Source: Spiroplasma litorale
GTDB lineage: Bacteria; Bacillota_I; Bacilli_A; Mycoplasmatales; Mycoplasmataceae
Direction: 5' to 3'
Length of the DNA: 64,000 bases
NCBI RefSeq assembly: GCF_001267155.1
Contig: NZ_CP012357.1
Coordinates: 62,001 to 126,000, forward strand
Shown here: positions 11,090 through 46,458 of the stretch, piece by piece
How the letters are laid out: each line of letters opens with the position of its first letter
Position numbering within the stretch: the stretch's first letter is position 1
The notes under the pieces: generated by a model
Databases searched by the model: none
Told to the model about the DNA's origin: nothing
The model's input: only the letters and a program-made list of their open reading frames with translations
Made by a program: the position numbers and the translations under genes

Positions 11090-11493
11090 GGGGGTGTCCC
11101 GGTCTCGACAGGATATTTTCACCCATAGTTGCAGTGGTTTGGTAGACCTTAATACTTCTAGGTTTGATAAAATGCAAACGAAAACAAAAATGAATTTGAA
11201 ATGCCAGCATTTATGATCAATAATGCATCAGCTGGAGTTGCTTTAGCAGCTTAATAAGTTTTTATACTTATAGCATTCAACGTTAGTAAATGTGTTTATG
11301 CTTCATTTAATGACGTATTACCTAGCATAATAGATTAACTAATTGTGAGAGAGTTAATCGAAAATAACTTCACAAAATCTATAAATTATTTTTGTTAGTT
11401 TTATTTTTTATGGATAATTAAAAACTATCTAAACTGTAGACGCTATGGGTTGGAGTATTTTGGACGCGGGTTCGATTCCCGCCATCTCCACCA
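11090..11493 (+). ncRNA. ssrA: Transfer-messenger RNA (ssrA)
   Basis: About 404 nt. The 5' end GGGGGTG pairs with CATCTCC near the 3' end to form a 7-bp acceptor stem (with G-U pairs), followed by A and an encoded CCA. The TCGACAGG of the 5' domain and the T-arm GCGGGTTCGATTCCCGC are present. The tag reading frame begins at GCA (11174), encodes 26 residues starting ANENKNEFEMPAF and ending GVALAA, then has two TAA stops in tandem. It tags proteins from stalled ribosomes for proteolysis. A T tract after the CCA probably ends transcription. SmpB and RNase R lie just upstream. Confidence 0.97.
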
Positions 11494-11528
11494 TTTTTTT
11501 TTGCAAAATTGAAGAAAAAGAAAGGCTA

Positions 11529-13487
11529 GTGATTGTTTTGGATATTTTGTCTACAATATTGATTATTCTTTCTTTTTCTTTAATTTCAATTATTTTTTAT
11601 ATGTTTGCTTGAGGTTTTTCAAGACACATATTTAAAAAAATCTATATATATTACCAACTATTCTTGGGAGTAATTTTTGGTTTTCTTTCAACCTTTATAG
11701 TTGCAATTATTAGTATTATTACAGCGGACAAAAAAGTTTTATATTTAACATTATTTTTACCTATTATTTCATATTGGGTTTCAATTATTTTTATAAGTTG
11801 GTATGCCTCTATTGGAATAATAACTTGAAACTTATTAAATCTATTATTATTTTCAAGTTTATTTTCTCAATATTTTGGGATATTAGATGAAAACTATTCA
11901 AAGACACTTGTTTCAATTTTGTATATATTGCCATTTATAGGTAGTATTTTAAAATATTACTTATTTAAAAAATTATCTTCATGGTATATTTGCACTGTAG
12001 TCATATTTATTGCATTTTTAATTGTTTTAATTTGAAATATAATATACAGTAATTTTTCAGAAATTAAAGATAAGAGTTTGTATGTGATATTAGTTCTTAT
12101 AGCATTATATTTAACATATTTGATTTGTCAAACAATTGATAAAATTTATATTCATGCATTAAAACTTCAAAATATTGTTGTTTATGAAAATCAATACTAT
12201 TTAAATTATTCATCATCAAATTCACAAATCTTAAATTTAATTAGCCAAGAAAAAGTTAGGTATGGAATATATTCAAATTTTTATATTGCTGAATTTGATA
12301 AACTTGAAAAAAAGGTGAGTAACAATATAAAGGATTATATCTTTAATAGTATTGCAACTAGTGCATACAAAAGTATAAGTGAAAAATTTAAAAAAGTTAT
12401 ATTTTTTAAAACTAACTATAAAACATTTGGTGTATTTATTCCAATAGAAAATTTGTCAAATGATATTAAAAAAACTCCGGAGTTAACAAAACTATTTAAC
12501 ACTTTAATCAGTTTACAAACAATATTTTTAATAAAGAGTTATAAAATTAAAATAAACATTAGATCGGTTTCAAGCTTCTATGGAGTCCATTCAAACGATT
12601 TAAATAACTTAAATGACTTGAATAATTATATGATTAAAAATCAACTACTAATTATTGAAGAGAGTCACACAATTGCAAATCCAAGTGAAATATTAATTGA
12701 AAAAAATAAATTAAGAAAAATTTCATCATTGAATGAAGTTGTGAATTTAAACTTACACACTACTTTATACGAACCTATTTACAATTTAGAAAAAAAAGAT
12801 TTTAGTGGGTATTTTTTAAATGGAATAATAAATGGTGAAGAATTAAATTCGCAAACTTTTTATAAAACCAAAAAGTTAATTGATGATATGGGTTTAACAA
12901 GTTTATTTTTAAGATACCTATCATTGAGTTCTCTTAAAGATTACTCAAGAAAAATAGGTACAGATAAATTTGATAAATTAATTTTTGTAAATTATGACAG
13001 CGACTATTTATCAAGCTCATCATTCGATAAAGACGAGTTTATATTAAAATTAAAAAATTTAAAAATAAATTTAAAAAATTTAGTTTTAAATTTTGAAATT
13101 AACAAAGAGATTAATAGTAAAGCTACCTTAAAAAATAATATAATGTTTTTGAAAAGCAATAATATAAAAACTTCAATCTCTAATTTTGGAAATGAATTAA
13201 CAGATTATAGTCTTATTCAATGTTATGAACCAGACTTTATATTTTTAGAAAGTGAACTTTCAAAATCGGCACAAGCAATTGATAACCACAAAAAAGTAAT
13301 AGAAGGATTAATAACAATTGCAAAAAAAATTGAAGCACTTCTTATTGCAACCAATGTAAATAGTTATATAATATACAAAAGGTTAAAAGAAATTGGACTA
13401 AAAAATTTTTTAGGTAGTCTAATGGGGAGTTCTTCTGATTTAAAAAAATACATATCAGAAGAATTAAATTATTTATTGACAAAATAA
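11529..13487 (+). CDS. Membrane protein with degenerate GGDEF and EAL domains
   Basis: 652-residue protein with about six N-terminal membrane segments (residues 1-195). A middle domain follows in which NYKTF (about 296-300) sits where GGDEF would be. The C-terminal domain (about 405-645) has the EAL-fold pattern: YEPIYNL, then YFL where EAL would be, LVLNFEI for LxLEITE, SNFGNELTDYS for DDFGTGYSS, and PDFIFLE for DFIKID. All catalytic acids that can be aligned by eye are lost, so neither cyclic-di-GMP synthesis nor breakdown is expected. It may be a sensor or scaffold. I chose a GTG start because the frame extends without a stop from there; AAAGG lies only 3 nt upstream, so a nearby TTG is an alternative. 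Confidence 0.68.
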
Positions 13488-17078: not shown

Positions 17079-19202
17079 ATGACAAATACAAAAAACATAT
17101 CAAATGAAATATCATCAATAATATCAGTTGAAAATAATGATTTGAAAAATGAAAATGCAAATATGAGTGGAGATACACCAAGTGGAAAAATGATGAAATT
17201 TGCATCAATTACTGCAAAAGAATACGCACTTGAAAACTTACTAGATAAAAAACACTCAGATTTACATAGACAATCAATTATTCACATACATGATCTTGAT
17301 TACTATGCTACAAAATCTGCAACTTGTGTACAGTACAATATAGAAGAAATATTTAAAGATGGATTTTATACAAGAAATGGACACATAAGAGAACCAAAAT
17401 CAATTGCAGTTTATGCTGAACTTGCTGCAATAGTTTTTCAAACTGCTCAAAACGAAATGCATGGAGGACAAGCAATCCCAGCATTTGATTTTTTCATGGC
17501 AAAAGGTGTATCAAAATCTTTTAATAAAAGATTATTTGAAAATGTAGTTTCATATCTAGAAATAACTGAATCAAAATATGATGAAAAAGTTTTAAAAGAT
17601 AAAATAAACAGCTCTGATTTTATAAAATTTGAAAATACTAATCCAAATCAACTAATGGATTTATTATCACAATTTAGCATCCCAGAAAAAACAATAAAAA
17701 AACTTATTGAAAATGCAAATAAAAAAGTAAGTTCTGATACAGATCAAGCAATGGAAGGTTTCATTTATAATTTGAATACCCAACACTCTAGAGGTGGTAA
17801 TCAAGTTGTATTCTCATCAATTAACATTGGAACTGATACTTCTAATGAAGGTAGACAAGTTATAAAATCTTTATTTAAAGCTTTAAGAAATGGATTAGGA
17901 AATGGAGAAACTTCAATATTCCCAATAGTAATATTTAAAGTTAAAGATGGACTAAACTTTTCTCAAAATGATAAAAAAAGAGCAGATAGTTTAAATCAAA
18001 AAGATTGAAAAAATGTTAATGATTGAGAAACAAAAAACTTTGATTTATTTTTAGACGCTCTTGAAACCACAAGTACTAGATTATTTCCAAACTTTATGTT
18101 TTTAGACCAACCATATAATATGCATGAAAAATGAAATATAAACGATCCAAATAGATGGATGTATGAGCCCGCAACAATGGGATGTCGTACAAGAGTTTTT
18201 GAGAATATAAGAGGCGAAAAAACAAGTGTAGGGAGAGGTAACCTATCATTTACTTCTTTAAATTTACCTTTCATAGCCTTAGAACTGCTAGAAGATAAAG
18301 GTTTAATTTCAAATAATTATATTGATCGTGAAAGAACCAATAGAGAAGAAATTAAAGAAGAGTTTTTAACAAAAATAAAAGAATTATCTAATGAGGTTTG
18401 CCAACAATTATATAATAGATATAAATTCCAAATATCTGCAATAGCAAAAGAGTTCCCTTTCTTAATGAGAAATAATGTATTAACAGGAGGGCAATCACTA
18501 AAAGCTAACGACAGCGTTGAAGATGTTTTTGTTAAAGGAACATTAACTATTGGATTTGTAGGATTAGCAGAAGCATTGAAAGCTTTGATAGGTGTTCACC
18601 ATGGTGAAAGTGAAGAAGCGCAAGAATTTGGTATTGAAATTGTTAAGGAAATGAATAAAGTTTCTGAATTTTGAAAACAAAAAACTGAGCTTAATTACGG
18701 TGTAATTGCAACTCCCGCAGAATCAGTGGCAGGAAGAATGGCAAAAGTTACAAAATCAAGATTTGGTTCAATAAGTGAAATTACAACAAGAGATTACTTT
18801 ACAAACTCAAATCATGTACCAGTTTACTATAATATATCAGCTTATAAAAAAATTCAAAAAGAAGCTGCATATCATAAATGAACTTTAGGTGGAAACATAA
18901 GTTATATTGAGCTTGATGGAGAAGCAAAGAAAAACTTACACGCAATTTTGTCAGTTGTTGATTATATGAAAAATAATGGTATTAATTATGGTAGTTTAAA
19001 CCACCCAGTTGATAGATGTAAAAAATGTCACTATACTTCATTGATACAATTAAATTGTCCAAAATGTGGGGCAAACGATATTTCAAGAACAAGAAGAATT
19101 ACAGGATATCTTGTTGGTGACTTGGATGGATGAAATTCAGGTAAACAAGCCGAAGAAAGAGAAAGAGTGAAACATTTAAAACAAGAAAATGAAAATTCTT
19201 AA
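17079..19202 (+). CDS. nrdD: Anaerobic ribonucleoside-triphosphate reductase
   Basis: 707-residue class III ribonucleotide reductase, a glycyl-radical enzyme that makes deoxynucleotides without oxygen. The C-terminal zinc site has four cysteines (C647, C650, C660, C663). The radical motif RITGYLVG places the glycine at residue 676. The central [15 protein letters not shown] and [10 protein letters not shown] stretches are family typical. The start follows a GGGGG-containing site (17066-17070). The gene overlaps its activase nrdG by 14 nt. An aerobic reductase is also encoded in this window, so the cell can make dNTPs with or without oxygen. Confidence 0.95.
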
Positions 19203-19695
19203 AATCTTTAAAGAAACAATTAGTGATGGTCCGGGTATTAGGTATTCTATATATGTTGCAGGTTGCTTACATGCATGTAAAGGGTGTCACAACTTACTTA
19301 GTTGAAGTTTTAAATTAGGAAAAAACTTTGATAAAGAATATGAAGAACAAATATTAAAAGATTTAAAAGAAAACCCTTTACTAAGTGGTGTTACATTTTC
19401 GGGTGGTGATCCAATGTTTAGTTCTAAAGAGGTCTACTTTTTAATTAAAAGAATTAAAGAAGAAACTGGTTTAAATATCTGAGTTTATACTGGATTCACA
19501 ATTGATGAAATAATTCAACAACGTAATAATGGTGAAGATGAATTATATAGATATAAAATTTTAAAGATAATTGATGTTTTAGTTGATGGAAGATGAGTTC
19601 AAGAACTATATGACCCCCAACTAGACTTTAGAGGTAGTAGTAATCAGAGATTAATAAATACAAAAGAATGACTTAAAGAGAAAAAACTTATTTAA
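19189..19695 (+). CDS. nrdG: Anaerobic ribonucleotide reductase activating protein
   Basis: 168-residue radical-SAM enzyme that creates the glycyl radical on NrdD. The iron-sulfur motif is C26-x3-C30-x2-C33 ([10 protein letters not shown]), and the SAM-binding FSGGDP follows. DGRW and FRGSSNQR near the end are typical of NrdG. It overlaps nrdD, consistent with coupled synthesis of enzyme and activase, and is followed by an intrinsic terminator. Confidence 0.95.
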
Positions 19696-26036: not shown

Positions 26037-28640
26037 ATGAAAGAATTTGAAGATTTGTTTAAAAAAGCGCGTGAGTCATTTGAAGAATTTTCTCAATTTA
26101 CTCAAGAAAAAGTTGATTATATATTTAAAAAAGCTGCATTAGCAGCAAACGAGAACAGGATTCACTTGGCTAAGTTAGCTAAAGAAGAAACAAAAATGGG
26201 GATCATAGAAGATAAAATCTTAAAAAATCACTATGCTAGTGAGTTTATTTATAATAAGTATAAAGATTTAAAAACTGTGGGTACATTTTACTCAAATGAT
26301 CCAGGGGGTATTGATAAAGTTTATGAACCAATTGGTGTTGTAGGAGCTGTAATACCAACAACAAACCCAACATCTACAGCAATATTTAAATGTTTATTAT
26401 GTATTAAAACAAGAAACACAATTATAATTTCACCTCACCCAGGTGCAAAAAAAAGTACAATTGAAGCTGCTAAAATTGTTTTAGAAGCTGCTGTTAAAGC
26501 TGGTGCTCCGAAAAATATTATCGGATGAATTGAAAACCCTTCTCTAGAAGGAACAGAATATGTAATGAAAAATTCAGATATTATTTTAGCAACTGGTGGA
26601 CCAGGAATGGTTAAGGCAGCTTATTCTTCTGGAGTGCCTGCAATTGGTGTTGGTGCTGGGAATGCACCTGCAATAATTGATGATTCAGCAGACTTAGAAC
26701 TTGCAACTTCATCAATTGTTCAGTCTAATACATTTGATAATGGTGTTGTTTGTGCAACAGAAAACTCAGTAGTTGTATTGGAGTCTGTCTATGATAAAGT
26801 TGTAAGTTTATTTGAAAAGAAAAATACTTATATCGTGACAAAAGAAGAGGAAAAAAATAAGTTTAGAAAAGCAATGTTTAAAGAAGGTAAGTTTGGACTT
26901 CTTAATTCAGAGTTAGTTGGTAGAAGTGCTTTAGATGTAGCAAAACTTGTAGGAATAAAAGTACCAGAAACAACAAGATTTATTTTAGTTGAAACAGAAA
27001 GCACAGAATATGATGAAGCATTAGTTCATGAAAAATTGTCTACATACGCTTCTTTATACAAAGCAAAAGATTTTGATGATGCAATTAAAAAATCTAAAAA
27101 TATATTAAAATTAGGTCCTGGACATACAGCGTCATTATTTATAAATAGAAAATCTTCAATTGAAAAAGTTGAAAAATTTAAAACTTTAAATCCGGGTAGA
27201 CTTTTAATTAACTCTCCTTCTTCACTAGGTGGTGTTGGAGACATGTATAACTTTATGTTAGAGCCAAGTCTTACATTAGGTTGTGGAACAAAAGGTGGTA
27301 ACTCATATTCACAAAATGTTACTCCTTTAAACTTATTGAACGTAAAATCATTAGTGGAGAGAAGAGAAAATATGCAATGACTAAGATTACCAGAAAGAAT
27401 TTATCATAAGTTTGGATCACTTGAGGTTGCTCTTGAAGATTTAAAAGATTGAAATATAAAAAATGTTTTTATAGTTACTGATAAAATTATTAACCAATTG
27501 TATGGTAAAAGAGTAACTTCAAAATTAGATGATTTGAATATCAAGTATACTATTTTTGATGATGTTGAACCAAACCCAATGCTTTCAACAACACTACGTG
27601 GATCAAAAATGTTAGAAAATATTAAAGCGGATGCAATAATTGGTATCGGTGGTGGATCATCAATGGATGCTGCAAAATTAATGTGATTATATTATGAGAG
27701 CGAAGAAGAAGTTGATTTCAAAGATCTTGCTGTAACATTTGCTGACATAAGAAAAAGAATAGTTAGATATCCAAACACAGGTAGAAAAGCAAAAATGATT
27801 TGTATACCAACAACTTCAGGAACTGGATCTGAAGTAACACCATTCTCAGTTATAACAGATGATAAAGATCATAAAAAATATCCTTTAGCAGATTACTCAC
27901 TTACACCTAACATGGCTATAATTGATCCATCATTAACAATGACTGTCCCAAAAGGAGCAACAAATGCGCCTGCATTAGATGCTTTGACCCACTGTTTAGA
28001 ATCATATGTTTCAGTTATGGCAACTGAATATACAGATTCTTATGCTTTACAAGGTGCAAAAAATATAATCGAATATTTACCAAGAGCTTATAAAGATGGA
28101 GCAACAGATAAAGAAGCAAGAGAAAAAGTTATGAATGGTGCAGCATTTGCGGGATTATCATTTGCAAACGCATTTTTAGGTATAGTTCACTCATTATCAC
28201 ATAAAATTGGTGGATATCACAATGTTATCCATGGTGCTGCAAACGCAATTCTTTTACCTTATGTAATTAGATATAATGCAGCTTGTGTTCTTGAAGGTGG
28301 TAAACAAGGATACTTCTCTCAATATGAAACACAAAACTCAATGGAAAAATATGCTTCTTTAGCAAAATTTATTGGATTAAAAGGTAAAAGTGATGAAGAA
28401 CTTGTTGACGCATTAATTGATAAAGTAAGAGCTTTAACAAAAGAAGTTGAATTAAAAACTAACTTTAAAGATTATGGTGTTGATGAAAAAGCATTTCTTA
28501 ATACATTAGATAAAATGTCTGAAGATGCTTTTGATGATCAATGTACAGGAGCTAACCCACGCTACCCATTAATTGAAGACATTAAACAACTATATATGGA
28601 TGCATATTACGGAAAAGATATTAAAAAATTTTCAAAATAA
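26037..28640 (+). CDS. adhE: Bifunctional acetaldehyde-CoA/alcohol dehydrogenase
   Basis: 867-residue AdhE that reduces acetyl-CoA to acetaldehyde and then ethanol, regenerating NAD. The N-terminal aldehyde dehydrogenase half has its catalytic Cys at 239 (FDNGVVCATE). The C-terminal iron-dependent alcohol dehydrogenase half has GGGSSMDAAK, PTTSGTGSE and the metal-binding D648 region (DALTHCLES) with HSLSHKIGGYHNVIHG further on. Length is normal for AdhE. It precedes the PFL genes, and together they form an anaerobic ethanol/formate pathway. It has its own promoter and terminator. Confidence 0.97.
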
Positions 28641-28764: not shown

Positions 28765-30822
28765 ATGAGATTTAAAGAATGAGAAGATTTTCAACCCGGT
28801 GAATGGGTTGATGAAGTTGACGTTAGAAGCTTCATCCAAAGAAATTATACACCTTATACTGGTGATGACTCTTTTTTAAAAGGTCCAACCGAAAACACTA
28901 ATAAATTATGAGCTAAAATAATGGAACTTACTAAAAAAGAGAGAGAAGCAGGAGGAGTTTTAGATGTTGATACAGATATACCATCTACAATTACCTCACA
29001 TGCTGCAGGGTTTATAGATAAAAAACTTGAAAAAGTAGTAGGATTACAAACAGATAAACCCTTTAAAAGAGCATTAATGCCATGAGGTGGTATTAATATG
29101 GCAATTCAGGCAAATGAATCATATGGATTTACAGTGTCTGATAGAGTAAAAGAAATATTTACTAAATATAGAAAGACTCACAACCAAGGTGTTTTTGATG
29201 CATACACACCTGATATGAGAAAAATACGTAGAAGTCATATTGTTACTGGACTACCTGACGCATATGGAAGAGGTAGAATTATTGGAGATTACAGAAGGTT
29301 AGCCCTATATGGATCAGATTTTTTAATACAACAAAAAATTAAAGATTCATACTTAATTGACGGTGAAATGACAGAAGATAAAATTAAGCTACGTGAAGAA
29401 ATTACAGAACAAATAAATGCATTAAAAGATATTACAAAAATGGCAGAATCATATGGTTTTGATGTTTCTAAACCAGCTAAAGATGCACACGAAGCATTTA
29501 ACTTTACATATTTAGCTTATCTTGCTGCAATTAAACAAAACAATGGTGCTGCAGAATCATTTGGTAGAACAGCAACATTTTTAGATATTTATATTGAAAG
29601 AGATTTTAAAAAAGGAATTTTAACTGAGGAAAAAGCTCAAGAACTTGTTGACCACTTAGTTATGAAATTAAGAATAGTTAAATTTGCTCGTACTCCTGCA
29701 TATAACCAAATATTTTCAGGAGACCCTGTTTGAGCAACTGAATCAATTGGTGGAATAGGTTTAGATGGACGAACACTTGTTACAAAAAACTGTTTTAGAT
29801 ATATTCACACCCTTTCAAATATGGGACCTTCACCAGAACCAAACTTAACTATATTGTGATCAAATAATTTGCCTAATAAATTTAAAGAATTTTGTTCAAA
29901 ATATTCAATTATGTTTTCATCAATGCAATATGAAAATGATGACATAATGAGAACAACTCATGGGGATGACTATGCAATAGCTTGTTGTGTTTCTCCAATG
30001 AAAGTTGGAAAACAAATGCAATTCTTTGGTGCAAGAACAAACTTGGCAAAAACATTATTATATGCAATTAATGGTGGTAAGGATGAATTACTAAAAGAAC
30101 AAATTACACCAATTTTTGAACCAATTCAAACAGGTGATGGTCAATTAGATTATGAAGAAGTTTGAAAAAAATTCGATAATATGATGGGGTGAGTTGCTGA
30201 GAAATATGTAAATACACTTAATGTTATTCATTATATGCACGACAAATATTATTATGAAAGTGCAGAAATGTGTTTCTATGATACAGATGTACATAGATTC
30301 TTTGCTACTGGAATTGCAGGATTATCAGTTGTAGCAGACTCTTTATCAGCTATAAAATACGCTAAAGTTTTCCCAGTAAGAGATGAACACGGTATTGTGA
30401 CATCATATAGAACTGAAGGTGACTTCCCTAAATATGGTAATGATGATGATAGAGTAGATGACATTGCAAAAGAAGTTGTAAAAGTATTTATGAATAAAGT
30501 AAGATCACATAAAACTTACAGAGGTTCTGAAGCAACAATGTCAGTTCTTACAATTACATCAAATGTTGTATATGGTAAATCAACAGGAGATACACCTTGT
30601 GGTAGACGTTATCCAGAAGCGTTTGCACCAGGAGCCAACCCAATGCATGGTAGAGATTGTTCGGGAGCAGTTGCTTCATTAGCTTCAGTTTCAAAAATTC
30701 CATTTAAACATGCAGCAGATGGTATATCAAATACTTTCTCAGTTATTCCTAATGCATTAGGAAAAGATGAAGATTTAGTAATAACAGGAGAAATTAAAGT
30801 TTCTGGAAAATTACCAAAATAG
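28765..30822 (+). CDS. pflB: Pyruvate formate-lyase core subunit, lacking the glycyl-radical domain
   Basis: 685-residue protein matching pyruvate formate-lyase from its N-terminus ([13 protein letters not shown]) through the catalytic pair C407-C408 ([10 protein letters not shown]) to [15 protein letters not shown]. In ordinary PFL (about 750-760 residues) that point is followed by the C-terminal domain with the radical glycine. Here the frame ends 15 residues later with a real TAG, and the missing domain is a separate gene 61 nt downstream. The enzyme cleaves pyruvate with CoA to acetyl-CoA and formate; activity must need the second subunit. AAAGGAG precedes the ATG. Several UGA-Trp codons occur. 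Confidence 0.93.
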
Positions 30823-31169: not shown

Positions 31170-31916
31170 ATGGAAGAAAAAGAAATTGTAGGTTACTACA
31201 ACAGTATTGAAACTTTTGGTGCTGTTGATGGTCCTGGATTAAGACTAGTTATATTTTTGCAAGGCTGCTTATTAAGGTGTAAGTATTGTCATAACCCTGA
31301 AACTTTAGAATTTAAAAAAGATAAAATTATTACTATTGACGAAGTGATTAAATTATATGAAAAAAATAAATCATTTTATGCCCATGGAGGTGTCACTTTA
31401 TCTGGTGGTGAAGCAACAACTCAGATCGATTTTTGTATTGCACTTTTTAAAAAACTAAAAGAATTAAATATAAACACATGCTTAGATACGTGTTTTGGAA
31501 CATTCAATGAAATTGAAAAAATTAAATCCAAATGAAGAGAACTTTTAAAATATACTGATTTAGTATTAGCTGATTTAAAACATATTGATAATGAAAAGCA
31601 TATTAGTTTAACTTCAAGACCAAATACAAATATATTAGAAGCAATAAAATTTGTTGACGAATGTAATACCAAGATGTGAATAAGGCATGTTCTTGTTCCA
31701 GGGTGAACAGATGATAAAGATGATCTTATAAAAATGGCCGAGTTTGTTAAAGGGCTTAACAATGTTGAACGATTTGAAATGCTACCATATCACAATATGA
31801 TGATACCCAAATATGAAAACCTAAAAATGAAATTTTATCTCAAAGATGTAACTCCTCCAAAAAAAGAATATGTTGTAGAATGTAGAAAAATAATTGAAAA
31901 CGTTCTTAAATCATAA
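31170..31916 (+). CDS. pflA: Pyruvate formate-lyase activating enzyme
   Basis: 248-residue radical-SAM activase. The cluster motif is C33-x3-C37-x2-C40 (GCLLRCKYC), with [10 protein letters not shown] before it and LSGGEATTQ for SAM binding after it. It would abstract a hydrogen from Gly57 of the small PFL subunit. Because it sits 11 nt behind a strong terminator with no promoter space, it is probably made by read-through at low level, as expected for a catalytic activase. The start has only a weak AGG upstream. Confidence 0.94.
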
Positions 31917-33026: not shown

Positions 33027-34832
33027 ATGGAAAAACAAAAAGTTAAAAATAAAACTGAATTTAAAGAACCATCGGTTTATATAATGTTATTAGCAAGAAT
33101 TATTGATATCTTATTATCTTCTGTACCAATGATATTGATTTATATATTTTTAAAAGTCGAGAGCTTACAAAGTGCTTTAATATTATTTTTCTCTTTTAAT
33201 TTTTCATTTTTTATATATTTTATTTTATTACCATATTTATTGAAAGGTAATACAATTGGAAAGTTTGTTTGCCTCTTAAGGTTAAAAAATGAGGGAAATA
33301 AAAATTTATTTTTATGCATACTAAGAAGAGAGTTGTATTTTTTATATATCCCCTTCATAGTTCAGACTTTATTACAAATTGTTGCACTTTTATTTTTTAG
33401 ATACTATCAACCTGGTAATAGCGATATGAATAGCAATGGTTGAAAAATAGCAGTTATAATTCAAAATTTAGGAAATACATTTCTAGCTATTTGATTTTTT
33501 TATTTGGTAATCACAATTTACCTAAGTCCTAAAAAAAGATCTGCGATTGATGCAAAACTAAATATTAAAATTTATTCTTTAAAATTTATAAATCAAAATC
33601 AATCTAAAAAATATGTAAACGTAGTTGAAGAAAATTATATACCAGGGGTTATTAATATGAATGAATTAATTGAAAATAAATCAATAGAGTTTAAGAAAAC
33701 AGAAAACCTAATCCAAGGCTGAGTTGAAAACTCATTCATTAATGGTGCAGTAATTAAGATTCAAAAAGGTAAGTCTTTAATTTATGAAAATGTTTTTGGT
33801 TATAATAATTTAAAAGAAAAAACTTTGATGAAAAGTAATACTATATTTAAAGGATATTCTATTACAAAAATGCTAACTGCAATTGGAACTTTAATTTTAG
33901 CGGATAAGAATTTAATATCATTAAACGATGAAGTATCTAAATACTTACCATGATTTAAAAATATGAAAGTTTATGAAAACGGAGAAATAAAAGAAGCGAA
34001 AAATAAAATTAAAATTTATCATCTATTAACAATGACTAGTGGCTTAGTTTATGGGGGTAAAACAACTCAAAGCGAGCATCAAACAGAAAAACTTTTATTA
34101 AAAATCCGCAATAAAGAATTTGCCAATGATGAATTTATGAAAATGGTATGTGATATACCTTTGGAGTTTGAACCTGGAACATCTTGAAAGTATGGAATAT
34201 CATATGATGTTTTAAGTGCATTAATTGAAAAAGCTATAGGTAGTTCATTCAGAAATTTTATAAAAGAAAATATATTAGATAGACTTAATATGAATGATAC
34301 TGATTTTTATATGATTGATAAACTTAGAGAAGCTTGTGTATACAAAGTATTAAATGAAAATGAAAAAAATAAATTAATAAAACTAGATAATTTTAATTAC
34401 TTACTTCAAGATATTGAAAAAGTGCCGAATATTTCTATGGGTGGTTCGGGTATATTTACAACTTGTGAAGATTATTTTAAATTTTTAAAATTTTTACTTA
34501 CAGGAAATGATAAAAATAATGTAAAATTATTATCTGATGAAATGTTAATACAAATGAGAAGCGATCAAGTTCATCTTTTAAAAAAATTTTTATATATGAA
34601 TATAAATGAAGATTATAGTTATGGTTATGGAGTAAGGGTCAGATTATCAAACCAAATAGAACCATTAACTTCTATTGGTCAATTCGGATGAGATGGTTTA
34701 CTTGGATCTAGTTGTATAGTTGATCCAAAAAATGAGCTCATAGTTTGTTTTATGACAAGTGTTAAACAAAAAGATGACAAAATTGTTAAAGAGTTATCAA
34801 AAGCAATTTATGAAGATATTAATATGCAATAG
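33027..34832 (+). CDS. RDD-domain / serine beta-lactamase-fold fusion protein
   Basis: 601 residues. Residues 1-185 form an RDD-type membrane domain with about four helices and the typical charged positions (LARIID, later KKRSAIDAKL). Residues 215-601 form a class C beta-lactamase/esterase-like domain with S278-x-x-K281 (GYSITK), LLTMTSGL, and a tyrosine at 389 in YGISYDVL where Y-x-N is usual. Such serine hydrolases act on peptides or esters. This organism has no peptidoglycan genes in view, so a lipid or peptide substrate is more likely. UGA-Trp codons link the parts into one frame. Confidence 0.75.
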
Positions 34833-37417: not shown

Positions 37418-38440
37418 ATGGCAAAACAAAAAAATGATTATTATAATGAATCGGTATCACCAGTTGAGTATGCATTAAATAAGTTTAAGGGAAAAATGCG
37501 TTCAGTTAACTGAAATGTGATTAATGATGACAAGGACTTAGAAGTTTGAAATAGAGCAACTCAAAATTTCTGATTACCAGAAAAAGTACCAGTTTCAAAT
37601 GACCTAGTTTCTTGAAAAACACTTGAGCCCAAATGACAACAACTGATAACTCGTACCTTTACAGGATTGACATTGCTTGACACAATACAAGCAACTATCG
37701 GAGACATTGCTCAAATACCTAATTCTTTAACAGATCATGAACAAGTTGTATATGCTAACTTTTCTTTTATGGTTGCTGTTCATGCAAGGTCTTATGGAAC
37801 AATTTTTTCTACATTATGTTCAAGTGAACAAATCGAAGAAGCGCACGAATGAGTTATAAATACTAAAAGTTTACAAGACAGAGCTAGAATTTTAATACCT
37901 TTTTACACTGGTGATGATATTTTAAAATCTAAAGTAGCTGCTGCTTTAATGCCTGGTTTTTTATTGTATGGAGGTTTTTACTTACCATTTTACTTATCTG
38001 CAAGAGGTAAACTATCTAATACATCAGATATAATTAGACTTATTTTAAGAGACAAAGTTATTCATAATTATTACAGTGGTTATAAGTATCAAAAAAAAGT
38101 ACAAAAATTAAGTCCTGATAAACAAGCGGAAATGAAAAAGTTTGTATTCGACTTATTGTATGAATTAATTGATTTAGAAAAAAAATATTTACTTGAGTTA
38201 TACGATGGATTCGGTATAGCAGATGATGCGATTAGATTTAGTGTGTATAATGCTGGTAAATTTTTACAAAACCTTGGTTATGAATCACCATTCTCAGAAG
38301 AAGAAACAAGAATTGATCCTGAGATATTTACCCAGTTATCAGCAAGAGCCGATGAAAACCATGACTTCTTTTCTGGTAATGGGTCATCTTATATAATGGG
38401 TGTTACTGAAGAGACAGAAGACTCTGATTGAGAGTTTTAG
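37418..38440 (+). CDS. nrdF: Ribonucleotide reductase small subunit NrdF, VPK type (metal-free class Ie)
   Basis: 340-residue R2 protein. Of the six metal ligands of normal NrdF it keeps D88, H122 and H216, but the three glutamates are replaced: Val119 (MVAVHARSY), Pro179 (LMPGFLLYGGF) and Lys213 (RDKVIHNYY). This V/P/K triple and the radical tyrosine at 126 match the class Ie protein known from Mesoplasma florum, where a DOPA radical forms with no metal. It supplies the radical to NrdE for dNTP synthesis. The frame crosses several UGA-Trp codons. AGGAAGGA precedes the start. nrdI follows after 3 nt. Confidence 0.95.
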
Positions 38441-38443
38441 TTT

Positions 38444-38905
38444 ATGCATGACGATATTAAATTAGTGGATGATTCTGAAATTGTTAAACCAACCGGAAAA
38501 GTTCATGTTGTGTATTTTTCATCCATATCAAACAATACCCACAGATTTATAGAAAAATTAGAAATTGATAATTCTAGAATTCCATATGAATTAGAAAATG
38601 AACTTAAAATATCAAAAGACTATGTTTTAATTACTCCAACATATGGTGGAGGCGGTAAAGATACTGCTGGTGCTGTACCAAAACAGGTTATCAAATTTTT
38701 AAATGATGAAAATAATAGAAAATATTGTAGAGGAGTTGTTGCTTCTGGTAACACTAATTTTGGTGACTCTTTTGCAATTGCTGGACCAATACTTTCTAAA
38801 AAACTTAATGTTCCTTTGCTTTATCAATTTGAGCTTTTGGGAACAAGCCACGATGTGGTTACTTTAAAAAAAATTCTTAATGATTTTTGAAACGAAGGGA
38901 ATTAA
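38444..38905 (+). CDS. nrdI: Flavoprotein NrdI
   Basis: 153-residue flavodoxin-like protein with FMN-site motifs [12 protein letters not shown] and [16 protein letters not shown], and the family stretch [12 protein letters not shown]. In class Ib and Ie systems reduced NrdI makes superoxide to activate NrdF; for the VPK-type NrdF it is needed for DOPA radical formation. There is no clear ribosome site 3 nt after nrdF, so translation is probably coupled. Confidence 0.94.
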
Positions 38906-38912
38906 TAATAAT

Positions 38913-41057
38913 ATGAACAATAAAAAAGATGTCATAGACACAGAAGAATATATAAAACTTAATGCAAGGTCAAAAATTTTTGTAAAAGATAAAGATAACT
39001 TCATTCTTGATAAAGAAGCAGCCAAATTATATATTGAACAAAAAATTGTTCCAAATACTATGAAGTTCAATAGTATTGAAGAAAGAATTAATTACTTAGT
39101 TCAAAATGAATATTATGATGAAGAAGTAATCAACAAATACAAAATGAGTGAAATTGTCGAACTAACAAATTACGCATTTACTTTTAATCATTCATTTCCA
39201 AGTTTTATGGGGGCATTAAAGTTTTTTAATGCATATGCTTTAAAAACATTTGATGGAAAACAATTCTTAGAAACTTATGAAGAAAGAGTTGTTATGAATG
39301 CACTATTTTTAGCGGGCGGAGACATAAATAAGGCGGAAGACTTATTAAAACAAATAATATTGAATAGATATCAACCTGCAACTCCAACATTTTTAAATGC
39401 AGGAAAAAAACAAAGAGGAGAATATGTTTCTTGTTACTTGCTAAGAGTTGAAGATAATATGGAATCAATCGCTAGAGCAGTTACAACTTCACTTCAATTA
39501 TCAAAAAGGGGTGGCGGAGTTGCTCTTTGTTTAACAAATTTACGTGAATTTGGAGCACCTATTAAAAATATTGAAAATCAAGCAACAGGAGTTATACCTG
39601 TTATGAAAATCTTAGAAGATACTTTTTCATACGCTAATCAATTAGGACAAAGACAAGGCGCTGGTGCAGTTTATTTAAACGCTCACCACCCAGATATTAT
39701 TTCTTTTTTAGATACAAAAAGAGAAAATGCAGATGAGAAAATTAGAATTAAATCATTATCTTTAGGAGTTGTGGTTCCAGATATTACATTTGAACTTGCA
39801 AAGGAAAATAAAGAAATGGCTCTATTTAGTCCTTATGATGTTGAGAAAGAATATAAGAAACCATTTTCAGATATTTCAATAACTCAAGAATATGAAAATC
39901 TATTAAAAAATAATAATATTAAAAAAACATATATAAATGCAAGAAAACTATTTCAAACAATTGCTGAATTACATTTCGAAAGTGGATATCCTTATATTCT
40001 ATTTGATGATACTGTAAATAATAGAAATGCACATAATGGTAGAATTGTTATGAGTAACTTGTGTAGCGAGATTGTTCAAGTAAGTACCCCAAGTACATTT
40101 AGAGATGATTTAAGTTTTGAAACAATTGGAGAAGATATTTGTTGTAATTTAGGAAGTCTAAATATTGCAAAAGTAATGGAAAGCGGTAAAGATTTTGGTC
40201 ATGTTGTTTATGATTCAATCTTTGCATTAGATTATGTATCAAGAAACTCAGATCTAAAAAGTGCGCCTTCAATTGAAAACGGAAATAGAAACAATCATGC
40301 TGTTGGTTTAGGAGCTATGAATCTCCATGGATTTTTAGCAACAAACGAAATATATTATAATTCTGAAGAAGCTGTTGACTTTACAAATATATTCTTTTAT
40401 GTACTTGCTTATAATGCTTTTAAATCATCTGCTAAACTGGCAAAAAAATATGGAGCATTTAAAAATTTTAAAAATACAAAATTTGCTGATGGATCATATT
40501 TCAAAAAGTATACAGAATGTGAAGATGGAAAATGATTACCAATTACTGAAAAAGTTAAAGATATATTTAAAAAATATAATGTTGAAATACCTTCAAAACA
40601 AAATTGAATAAATTTAGTTGAAGAAATAAAAAAAACAGGGATAGCAAACTCGCATTTATTAGCGGTTGCTCCTACAGGATCAATAAGTTATTTATCTTCT
40701 TGTACCCCAAGCTTACAACCAGTTGTTGCACCAGTTGAAGTAAGAAAAGAAGGTAAATTAGGTAGAGTTTATGTGCCTGCATATAACATTAATTTTGATA
40801 ATATGCAATACTATGCAATGGACGCATACGGAGTTGGTCCAGATTGAATTATCGATATTGCTGCAGCAGCACAACAACATGTTGATCAAGCAATATCACT
40901 TACATTATTTATGACAGATAAAGCAACCACAAGAGATTTAAACAAGGCTTATATAAGAGCTTTCAAAAAAGGTTGTGCTTCAATTTATTATGTTAGAGTT
41001 CGTCAAGATGTATTAGAAGATAGTGAAAACTATGATTGTGATGCTTGTGTAATATAA
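38913..41057 (+). CDS. nrdE: Ribonucleoside-diphosphate reductase large subunit NrdE
   Basis: 714-residue catalytic subunit. The substrate-site cysteine in [11 protein letters not shown], the NLCSEI motif (N-x-C-x-E) and a second redox cysteine are present, and the C-terminus ends CDACVI, the swinging dithiol re-reduced by a thioredoxin-like donor. The ATG giving MNNKKDVID was chosen; the upstream part of the frame only overlaps nrdI. GAAGGG lies 13 nt before it. Forms the active enzyme with NrdF. Followed by a terminator. Confidence 0.96.
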
Positions 41058-41138: not shown

Positions 41139-41888
41139 ATGATAGAAATTAAAGAAGTATCAAGAAAAATTGGAAATTTTAGTTTGAAAAAAGTTAGTTT
41201 TAATATAAACAATGGTGATGTAATTGCTTTTGTTGGTGACAATGGTGCAGGTAAAACAACAACAATTAAAGCTCTATTTGGAGAACTAAAAATTGATAGT
41301 GGATCAATTTTAATTGATGGAGAAAACTTATTTAAAAATAATAACTTAAGAAAAGTAGCTTTCTTTCCAGATTCAAATAATGTTCCTTTAAATATGAAAT
41401 TATCAGATTATTTGCGTTATATTTGTGCTGCAAATGATTTATCAAAAGAAGAAACTGAATTGAATACTGAGTATGTTTATAGATTACTTGAATTAAAACC
41501 TTTTAAAGATAAATTAATTAAAAAATTGTCTTCAGGTTGAAAAAAGAAAGCTATAATGGCCAGTGTTCTAATAAGAAAACCTAAATATATCATATTTGAC
41601 GAACCTACTGCAAACGTGGATGTTGAGTCTAAAATGTATTTTATGGAAATATTTAGATTATTAGCAAAAGTTGGGATAACAATACTTATAACAAGTCATA
41701 TAATTGAAGAGTTGCAAGAAGTTGCAAACCATTTGGTTCTTATAAGAAGAGGCGAAATAGTTCACGATGCTAAGTTTGATAATTCAAAAGAAAAAATAAT
41801 GGATGTATATAAGAAATATATGCAAAGTCCAATTAAAGATCTATCAATATTAAGAAATTTATATGCAAATCAAAAGAGGGAATCATAA
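41139..41888 (+). CDS. ABC transporter ATP-binding protein (exporter pair 1)
   Basis: 249-residue ATPase. Walker A GDNGAGKTTT (about residues 33-42), Walker B YIIFDEP, and H-loop TSHIIEE are intact. The ABC signature reads LSSGWKKKA instead of LSGGQ, with the Trp coded by UGA. It pairs with the permease that begins 1 nt after its stop. It is a close paralog of the ATPase at 43773, sharing a 47-nt identical stretch around Walker A. I chose the ATG behind AAAGGAA. The cargo is unknown. Confidence 0.88.
41241..41287 (+). repeat. 47-nt exact direct repeat, copy 1
   Basis: Covers the Walker A region of the first ABC ATPase. It is identical, including third codon positions, to 43875-43921 in the second ATPase 2.6 kb away. 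Confidence 0.85.
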
Positions 41889-41889
41889 G

Positions 41890-43761
41890 ATGGAAAAATT
41901 AGAAAAAGAAACTAAGACAAATAGCAAAAATTATATTTCTTCTTATAAAAATTTTAATAATCTTTATTGAATAAATCTAAAGATATCTTTAAAAGCTACA
42001 AGTATTATTACAGCTGGAGTTATAACTTCGTTTAGTATATTTTTATTATTAATTGTAGAATTTGCATCTGGATATTCAGTTCAAAAAAGTTATGCTTCTT
42101 ATAGAGATGTAGTTTATATTTTTATAACTGCAATTGTTATTGTTAATGCTATGGTTATTTCATTTTATTTATATAAAACACAAAACAGAACCGGTATTCA
42201 AGCAATTGAACTTAGAGCGGGTTATACTGTATTTAAATCGTTTATAATAAGACAATTAGTTCAATTGACAATTATAGTTGTTTACTTACTACCTTTATTT
42301 TTATTATCAGTACCAATGATGTTTATTTTTAATATGGATTCAAAGTTTTATTTTGGTACATTATTTTCACAACTATTTTTTATTATTTTTCTAGGAATAT
42401 TTTCCTCTCTGATAATTAACGCAATTGTACTTAGTTTCAAAACTGCAATGGCAGCTTGTTTATCAACTATTTTTATGATTTTTTGTTCAATAACTCCGTT
42501 TGTTTACAACTTAGCAACTTCTGTTGGAAATCTTTCAAGTGGAGAAAAACAAAAAGTACCTTTAATAAATTTAAAATTTAAATCAGGATCAGACTTTTAT
42601 AATAATTTTAAAAACGATGCGAATTTGAGCAGTGTTTTTGATGACAATACACCTGAAAATAAATCAAAAACATTAGATAATTTAAATGAAAACTATAATA
42701 AAGCTGCAGATAGTTTGGCAAAAATAAATCCAAGTAATAACAGATTTAAAAATAACGATTTAAAAACATGAAGAGTTTCAGATAATAATCAACTTTATAC
42801 ATATGCTTTAAAAAAAGGTGAAATAATGTATAACTATATGCTTGGAGAAGATCAATTAACAGAATGAAATTTATTAAGTAATACATCATTTGGTAAATTA
42901 CTAATAGATATAAATGAAACTTTTTTTAAAGAAGATATTTACTCAAATTTAGTAAAAGAATTTAAATCTGTTACACCAAACATATATAAAAGATCTTATA
43001 ATATGGGTCAAGATTCTAATAAAATAAATGTTACCTTAAATAATTTTATTAAAGAAATAGATAAAACATTACCACAATATAGTGGTTTGGTAAATTACAT
43101 AAATAAATTCTATTTAGCAAATTATGATTATCTTATTTTAGATAATAAAACACTAATAGATACTATTAGCAATGATTCAATTTATAATGAGTCATCATGA
43201 GGAAAAGAATCAGCTTGTTCAACTTGAGGTGAAGGAAGCAAAAATTGTAACTCTGAAACTATTAATAAAAATGATGAATATAAAAATAAATACACAGAAT
43301 ATCCAGAACTAACAATATTTAATGGACTATTTTTAGGATTATGAAAAAACTCAATGATTTTTAATATTGACAATAAAGAAGATGTTAACTACTCACTTGA
43401 TGACTATTCAAAACTAACAAAATCGTTTTCAACATCATCTACAAACATTATGATTCACTTTCCAATGATGTTTAGTGGTATATTTATGGATTCATTAGTT
43501 GATGATGGATTAAGTACACAATCATTTTTATCTGTTTCAAGACCTGTAACTTACATAAAAAATTTATTTGATTATGAAAAACAAGCTCCTGAAAATAAAA
43601 ACAAAACAAATAACTCTTCTTTAACACCTCTATTTAAAGATGGATATTTAAAATACTCTTCATATTTTATTAAAGGACTTGCTTTCTTTGTTTACTTACT
43701 AGTAGCTTCACCGCTTGCGTATTTAACTTGATTATCATATAGAAGAAGGGCTAGAGTTTAG
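41890..43761 (+). CDS. ABC transporter permease with large extracellular domain (pair 1)
   Basis: 623 residues. After a cytoplasmic N-terminus, about six membrane segments lie between residues 35 and 220. Then comes a large hydrophilic region (about 225-590) and one last membrane helix near the C-terminus (FFVYLLVASPLAYLT) with a basic tail. This resembles ABC-2 type exporters. The QNRTGIQAIELRAGY stretch has a counterpart in the second permease (KQMIDGIQIIEVRSG), showing common descent. The soluble region contains a Cys pair (SACSTWGEGSKNC). Cargo unknown; surface lipids or peptides are possible. Confidence 0.75.
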
Positions 43762-44517: not shown

Positions 44518-46458
44518 ATGGAAAATACAAAAAACCTGAAAGAAATAAAACCCAAAAAAACAAAAGTAAAAAAAGAAATGGGTGCTCATTCAAAAATTAA
44601 AACTTTATTTTTAATAAATCTTAAAAGAGTTATTGTGAATAAAGGTATTATTGCAATGGCATGTATTTTTATTATATTAAATGTTCTTTTTACTATATCA
44701 ACTTCATCAAGTATTAGTTTAGATACCTATATAACTTTAATAGCACAATTTATTTTGCAATTATTCTTCTTTATAATCTTCTTAACTTTACTTGTAAATG
44801 ATTTATATAAAAAACAAATGATTGATGGTATACAGATAATTGAAGTGAGATCCGGTATTAAAATAACTAACTCATTTTTTATGAGATATTTAATTTACTT
44901 GACTATTGCTTTTAGTCTTTGCACTTTAAATATGTTAATATCAGTAGCTTTAAGAAACAAATCTCTATTTGAGACATCTATATCTGCATCTATTTATTGA
45001 AGTACATATTTCTTTTTCTTCATATTTACATTAATATGAGCACCAATAATTATTGCAATTAACGTTTCGGTAAGTGTTGCAGGTTCAGTTGTTCTTAATA
45101 TTTTCTTAGGGACTGTAGTGATTTTTTCACAGTTAATTTCAGGTGTTGTGTTACAAACAACCCAATATGATTATTTTACATCAGCAAATTTAACAACTAA
45201 TCCAATTTGAACTGCAAGAGTTGAATTATCATACTCATTTTATGATGAGTTTAAAAATGATGATAAAATCTCAAAATGATTTAATGATAGTTTCTTTGCA
45301 AAAGTAAATAATAATTTGAATTATTTTTATGTTGAGGATGAAGAGGGTGCACCAGAACCTGAAAATAATTCTTCATTAAATTTAAAAAATAATTTTAAAT
45401 TTAATTATAAAACTTGAAAAAGTTCGCAAGAATACAATTATAACAATAATGGAGGGCATAGTTCTAGCGCAAATCCATATGAACAATTATTAAGTCAAAT
45501 GTTATATGGTTATAAACTTAATTATGCATTAGATTATAACGGTAACAAACCTGTTCATGTTCTTGAAAACACAAACATTTATTCTTTTTTATCAGAAGTA
45601 TATAACTTAATTGACACAAATTTTTTAGATAGTTCTAAAAAAGCACCACACAACAATGCGGCAGAACCGGTATTTTGAGATACAACTAATGGAAATGTAA
45701 TTAAATTGAGTCCATTAATTGAATGATTGGATAAACAAGAATCAATGAAAGATTATAAAAGTTATCTTGAGTGACTAGATAAAAATTATGATAAATATAT
45801 ATATTCAATAATGTCAACTAGGGTCAGTGACTATAACTCTTCAGATTATTACACACCATTTCAACTTATTTATAATAATAGTGGTACATCAAACCCAAGT
45901 ATTGACTGAAATAGATTTATTCCACTTAACCCAAAAACACAAGAAAAAACAACAGAATACAATAATAATGTAAATAAAATATACAATAGATACCCTGAAT
46001 TATTATTATTTAATTGATTTGTATTAAGTAATTTTTCAAACTCGGTAAGAATTGACAGTGCTAAAAATTCTAACAGTAAATCTTTAGATGCTTTTTTATC
46101 AGCAGCAGACTCAATTGGGGGATCATCAAGTAATTATTTAACATTTAACCCATTCACTCATTTTTCTACAATGTATTTTAATTCATTTTCTTCTCCGGTT
46201 ACAAATGACTTATTTTCATCAATATATAATGTAGCTATGTGACAAGGATCAAGAAAACCGATTGTAAATCTTAAAAGTCTTGCTAAATATGACTCAGAAA
46301 ATAGAAAGGATGATGAAATATCACCTATTTACGAAGAGTACAAACCAGAAAGAAATGCAACTTTTAGTGTAACTGGTGCATATGTATTTTATTTGTTATT
46401 TTCAGCATTAATTACATACTTTTCTTTCTTAATCTTTAAAAGATTTTCAAGAATATAA
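44518..46458 (+). CDS. ABC transporter permease with large extracellular domain (pair 2)
   Basis: 646 residues with a basic N-terminus, about six membrane segments (residues 35-235), a large Asn/Ser/Tyr-rich exposed region (about 240-615) and a final membrane helix (FYLLFSALITYFSF) before a short basic tail. Layout and order match the first permease, but the exposed regions share little visible sequence, suggesting different cargo or partners. Many Trp residues are UGA. Followed by a terminator. Confidence 0.75.

Follow-up and report, generated by a model that had tools for sequence, protein, structure and literature searches.

An nrdFIE operon of Spiroplasma litorale encoding a predicted metal-free class Ie (VPK) ribonucleotide reductase

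The genes nrdF, nrdI and nrdE of Spiroplasma litorale form an operon that very probably (about 0.96 by our estimate) encodes a class Ie ribonucleotide reductase of the VPK type, the only aerobic reductase of this organism, in which an oxidant derived from NrdI would generate a metal-free DOPA radical at Tyr126 of NrdF. The operon lies within a stretch of 64,000 nucleotides (the window), bases 62001-126000 of a complete, one-contig genome of 1,225,519 bases, and all positions given here are those of the window (Table 1). Its sequence, diagnostic residues, gene order, single copy and phylogenetic placement were established directly, and no sequence evidence against a class Ie assignment was found.

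Table 1 Features of the window discussed in the text
Feature	Position	Strand	Length	Evidence or remark
Membrane protein with degenerate EAL domain	11445-13487			no EAL signature; SNFG for the usual DDFG
nrdD, class III ribonucleotide reductase	17079-19202	+	707 aa	PF13597, 602 bits; TIGR02487, 588 bits
nrdG, radical-SAM activase of NrdD	19189-19695	+	168 aa	TIGR02491, 175 bits
adhE-like bifunctional aldehyde/alcohol dehydrogenase	26037-28640			
Pyruvate formate-lyase	28765-30822			
Radical-SAM activase of pyruvate formate-lyase	31170-31916			
RDD-like membrane part fused to class C beta-lactamase-like serine hydrolase	33027-34832			
nrdF, R2e subunit of class Ie (VPK) ribonucleotide reductase	37418-38440	+	340 aa	code 4 open reading frame; 6gp2 match
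nrdI, flavodoxin-like activator	38444-38905	+	153 aa	TIGR00333, 177 bits (cut-off 74.65); PF07972
nrdE, catalytic R1 subunit	38913-41057	+	714 aa from ATG 38913	TIGR04170, 981 bits; PF08343, PF00317, PF02867
Large ABC-transporter membrane protein	41863-43761			no Pfam or NCBIfam match
Large ABC-transporter membrane protein	44518-46458			no NCBIfam match

Long open reading frames are seen in the window only when TGA is read as Trp, and with that code all 340 codons of nrdF are open, including seven TGA codons. The protein aligns without gaps over residues 1-340 to the R2e of Mesoplasma florum (PDB 6gp2), with 294 of 340 residues identical (86.5%; E = 5.6e-206), and the two share a common residue numbering. 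Read directly, the translation carries D88, V119, H122, Y126, P179, K213 and H216. Columns 119, 179 and 213 are Glu in all 76 related class Ib sequences, so V119, P179 and K213 occupy ligand positions, as the initial annotation had proposed when it noted that D88, H122, H216 and Tyr126 are kept. A chance match or misaligned ligands can be ruled out from the gapless alignment, its E value and the all-Glu class Ib columns. Instead of the four carboxylate and two His metal ligands of a class Ib protein, NrdF thus has three of the four carboxylates replaced, by Val, Pro and Lys rather than the Gln, Ser and Lys of the QSK variant, with the Asp/His/His set and the Tyr of the VPK type retained. Because of these replacements, NrdF should be unable to hold the usual di-metal site.

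Agreement with the M. florum protein extends beyond the ligands. Structural work on that enzyme (MfR2) names W52, Q91, Y163, L183, F187 and Y325 for gating and radical transfer (PMC7615503); all six are the same in the window NrdF, and they and the active-site residues are invariant across all 65 VPK sequences examined. Position 183 is a fourth class-specific position within the sampled set: every VPK (65) and QSK (2) sequence has Leu there, and each of the 76 class Ib sequences has Phe. The differences from M. florum R2eVPK (6gp2, 6gp3, 8bt3 and 8bt4) are scattered changes away from the site. Other VPK-like R2e proteins (6ebo, 7mmp and 7mmr) match the window NrdF at about 600 bits from residue 5 or 6 to 340, although they come from other hosts and are more distant in sequence. 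The QSK enzyme of Gardnerella vaginalis is likewise class Ie and DOPA-based, with three Glu replaced and Lys as the third replacement, but it has Gln and Ser in place of Val and Pro, is encoded in the order nrdHIEF or nrdIEF and falls outside the VPK clade (PMC11846895). Class Ib NrdF proteins (for example, 3n37 and 1kgn) belong to the same overall family and also work with an NrdI partner but, unlike the window NrdF, keep all Glu ligands and use Mn2 or Fe2.

The gene order at the locus, nrdFIE, is the one described for the VPK variant (PMC11846895) and is shared by M. florum and VPK genomes in general. Each of the three genes scored above the curated cut-off of its matching NCBIfam model, and Pfam was searched as well. 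That nrdI adjoins nrdF, as first noted, was borne out, with nrdE following; nrdI stands directly behind nrdF in 64 of 64 VPK loci checked, the window not being counted. The closest solved chains to the window NrdI, 6ebq and 7mmp_E, are both NrdI. The initial call of nrdE also stood, apart from its start: ATG 38913 appears more likely than ATG 38880, which would give 725 residues, because it is preceded by a Shine-Dalgarno-like aaggga and yields an N-terminus that better fits relatives. The NrdE translation contains the motifs SNLCSE, CCNLGSL, YYVRVRQ and a C-terminal CDACVI, and thioredoxin, a possible reductant, is encoded in the genome. ptsH (HPr) lies upstream of the operon and an ABC transporter ATPase gene downstream. 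A scan of the operon gave 19 promoter-like sites, no more than in shuffled sequence (25.7), and nothing resembling a terminator on the strand of the operon. Directly after the operon come two genes for large ABC-transporter membrane proteins, each behind its own ATPase gene.

Family searches of the complete genome returned exactly one R2 gene (PF00268), one NrdI and one R1 (PF02867). A second, normal nrdF, which the initial annotation had named as the finding that would count against its reading, is therefore absent from the genome by PF00268 search. A divergent PF02867 protein (open frame of ~700-850 aa, ~350 bits) is absent here and is found in many relatives (G003, G015, G021, G026, G027, G030, G034, G037, G042 and others), including genomes without any R2 gene; it is possibly a B12-dependent or other reductase.

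To place the enzyme among its relatives, we compared 99 genomes (that of the window and 98 relatives). A PF00268 gene was present in 64, and 63 of these could be typed by their ligands: 57, including that of the window, were VPK and six had the normal Glu residues. One R2 (L092) was too distant for alignment and its ligands were left untyped. All 20 genomes of the genus were VPK. NrdI was found in 62 genomes: all 57 of the VPK type, plus five whose R2 is of class Ib type. A tree built from 82 sequences placed all 65 of the VPK proteins in one clade (100/100) joined to the two QSK proteins. Its bootstrap had yet to converge completely and it brings some long branches together, but support for the VPK clade is firm. 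The window NrdF is nested within this clade, as expected of a class Ib-derived VPK protein, and groups with its homologues from G016 and G006 (95% and 94% identical, respectively). A GTDB survey found 128 VPK genomes, 93 of them Mycoplasmatales; the order was nrdFIE almost without exception, and 65 VPK species were dependent on class Ie alone (PMC11846895). The window enzyme is one more clear orthologue in a described class and an ordinary member of it, found in the group in which the class is most frequent. Among the sampled relatives, the metal-free form is the rule.

The proposed mechanism follows that of the M. florum orthologue, from which the absence of metal, the DOPA, the radical and its transfer path would carry over. 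Reduced NrdI would react with O2 to give an oxidant, either superoxide or the protonated species, that would pass along a channel between R2 and NrdI into NrdF. There, Tyr126 would be hydroxylated to DOPA and then oxidized to the radical, with D88 holding the DOPA radical and K213 acting as proton donor; at each turnover, the radical would travel via W52 and Y325 to the active-site cysteine of NrdE. In the orthologue, the DOPA radical formed with NrdI and O2 is known, with its 383-nm band, EPR signal and +16 Da mass shift (PMC7615503), and is held by a short hydrogen bond from D88, with a proton from K213 through water and an electron path over W52 (PMC7615503; PMC8902622); the route of DOPA formation is not settled (PMC11846895). 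The class Ie activity of this VPK orthologue is published, and the active protein was free of metal, with no Fe or Mn, by metal analysis and in crystal structures (as summarized in PMC11846895 and PMC7615503). The same analyses and structures make it very improbable that the window NrdF is an atypical class Ib enzyme that still binds metal through D88, H122 and H216, the three class Ib ligands (of six) that it retains; K213 would also put a charged amine inside such a site.

The class Ie reading can also be weighed against decay. As the genome has an intact class III system and some relatives lack any R2 gene, nrdF might be a class Ib gene that lost its ligands by drift in a cell relying on NrdD or on imported deoxynucleosides. 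We consider this just as improbable, given that all 65 VPK proteins carry the identical three substitutions and show no variation at any other functional residue, that the nrd operon is intact, that the orthologue is active (PMC11846895) and that six other genomes of the genus (G001, G005, G007, G009, G013 and G015) have a VPK R2 without nrdD.

The class III system itself comprises a glycyl-radical NrdD, with the motif RITGYLVG and zinc-type CKKC/CPKC motifs, and a radical-SAM NrdG with the 4Fe-4S motif CLHACKGC (CxxxCxxC). The class III enzyme needs the iron-sulfur cluster of NrdG. The initial expectation that aerobic dNTP synthesis would be free of iron and manganese probably holds for the class Ie enzyme, by analogy with M. 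florum, but does not extend to the class III one, and metal independence is limited to aerobic synthesis. The suggestion that the nrdD/nrdG context is worth recording fared less well. Both genes are in the window, but they lie 18 kb upstream of nrdF rather than adjacent to it, and nrdD occurs in 14 of the 20 genomes of the genus. Less than 25 kb separates nrdD from nrdF only in the window genome (G000) and its two nearest relatives, G006 and G016; wherever else in the genus both genes occur, they are much farther apart, which rules out a positional functional linkage as a general feature. Three genomes of another genus (G030, G037 and G042) have nrdD and no R2 gene. In contrast to the window host, the sampled genomes of a family-level group (g5) that includes Mesoplasma grammopterae have no NrdD match. 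No paper linking Spiroplasma with the class III enzyme by name was found in the literature searched.

The alignment of NrdD to its best family model starts only at position 92 of 746, with no ATP-cone match, and NrdE likewise lacks an ATP-cone, its Pfam matches being only those in Table 1; neither reductase therefore seems to have an ATP/dATP overall-activity switch. Between nrdG and nrdF, genes for an adhE-like dehydrogenase, pyruvate formate-lyase and its radical-SAM activase stand in a row, so this region encodes several enzymes that are oxygen-sensitive or fermentative and would in most cases use iron. Pyruvate formate-lyase was found in 18 of the 99 sampled genomes. Given that this genome encodes pyruvate formate-lyase and an AdhE-like protein besides the class III reductase, caution is warranted before such organisms are described as having no need of iron.

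The window genome gave no match to Fe/Mn superoxide dismutase. Among the 99 genomes, and without correction for kinship, this enzyme was present in 4 of the 57 VPK genomes (G063, G076, G094 and G098) and in 5 of 7 with another R2 type (G069, G072, G074, G079 and G084). Its scarcity in VPK genomes is suggestive of a fit with a superoxide-using enzyme, but shared descent may explain the pattern, because the family of the window genome is almost entirely without superoxide dismutase. A broader scheme, which we regard as rather unlikely, is that dNTP synthesis is split by oxygen between a metal-free, superoxide-dependent class Ie enzyme, working aerobically without detectable superoxide dismutase, and an anaerobic iron-sulfur class III enzyme, and that loss of the dismutase may have helped to fix class Ie in the lineage.

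Two further proteins of the window have unusual domain content. The membrane protein with the degenerate EAL domain is, judging by its altered motifs, probably not an active c-di-GMP phosphodiesterase, and the genome has no GGDEF match. The fusion of an RDD-like membrane part to a beta-lactamase-like serine hydrolase occurs in a wall-less bacterium, the genome of which also contains eight strong MreB-family matches.
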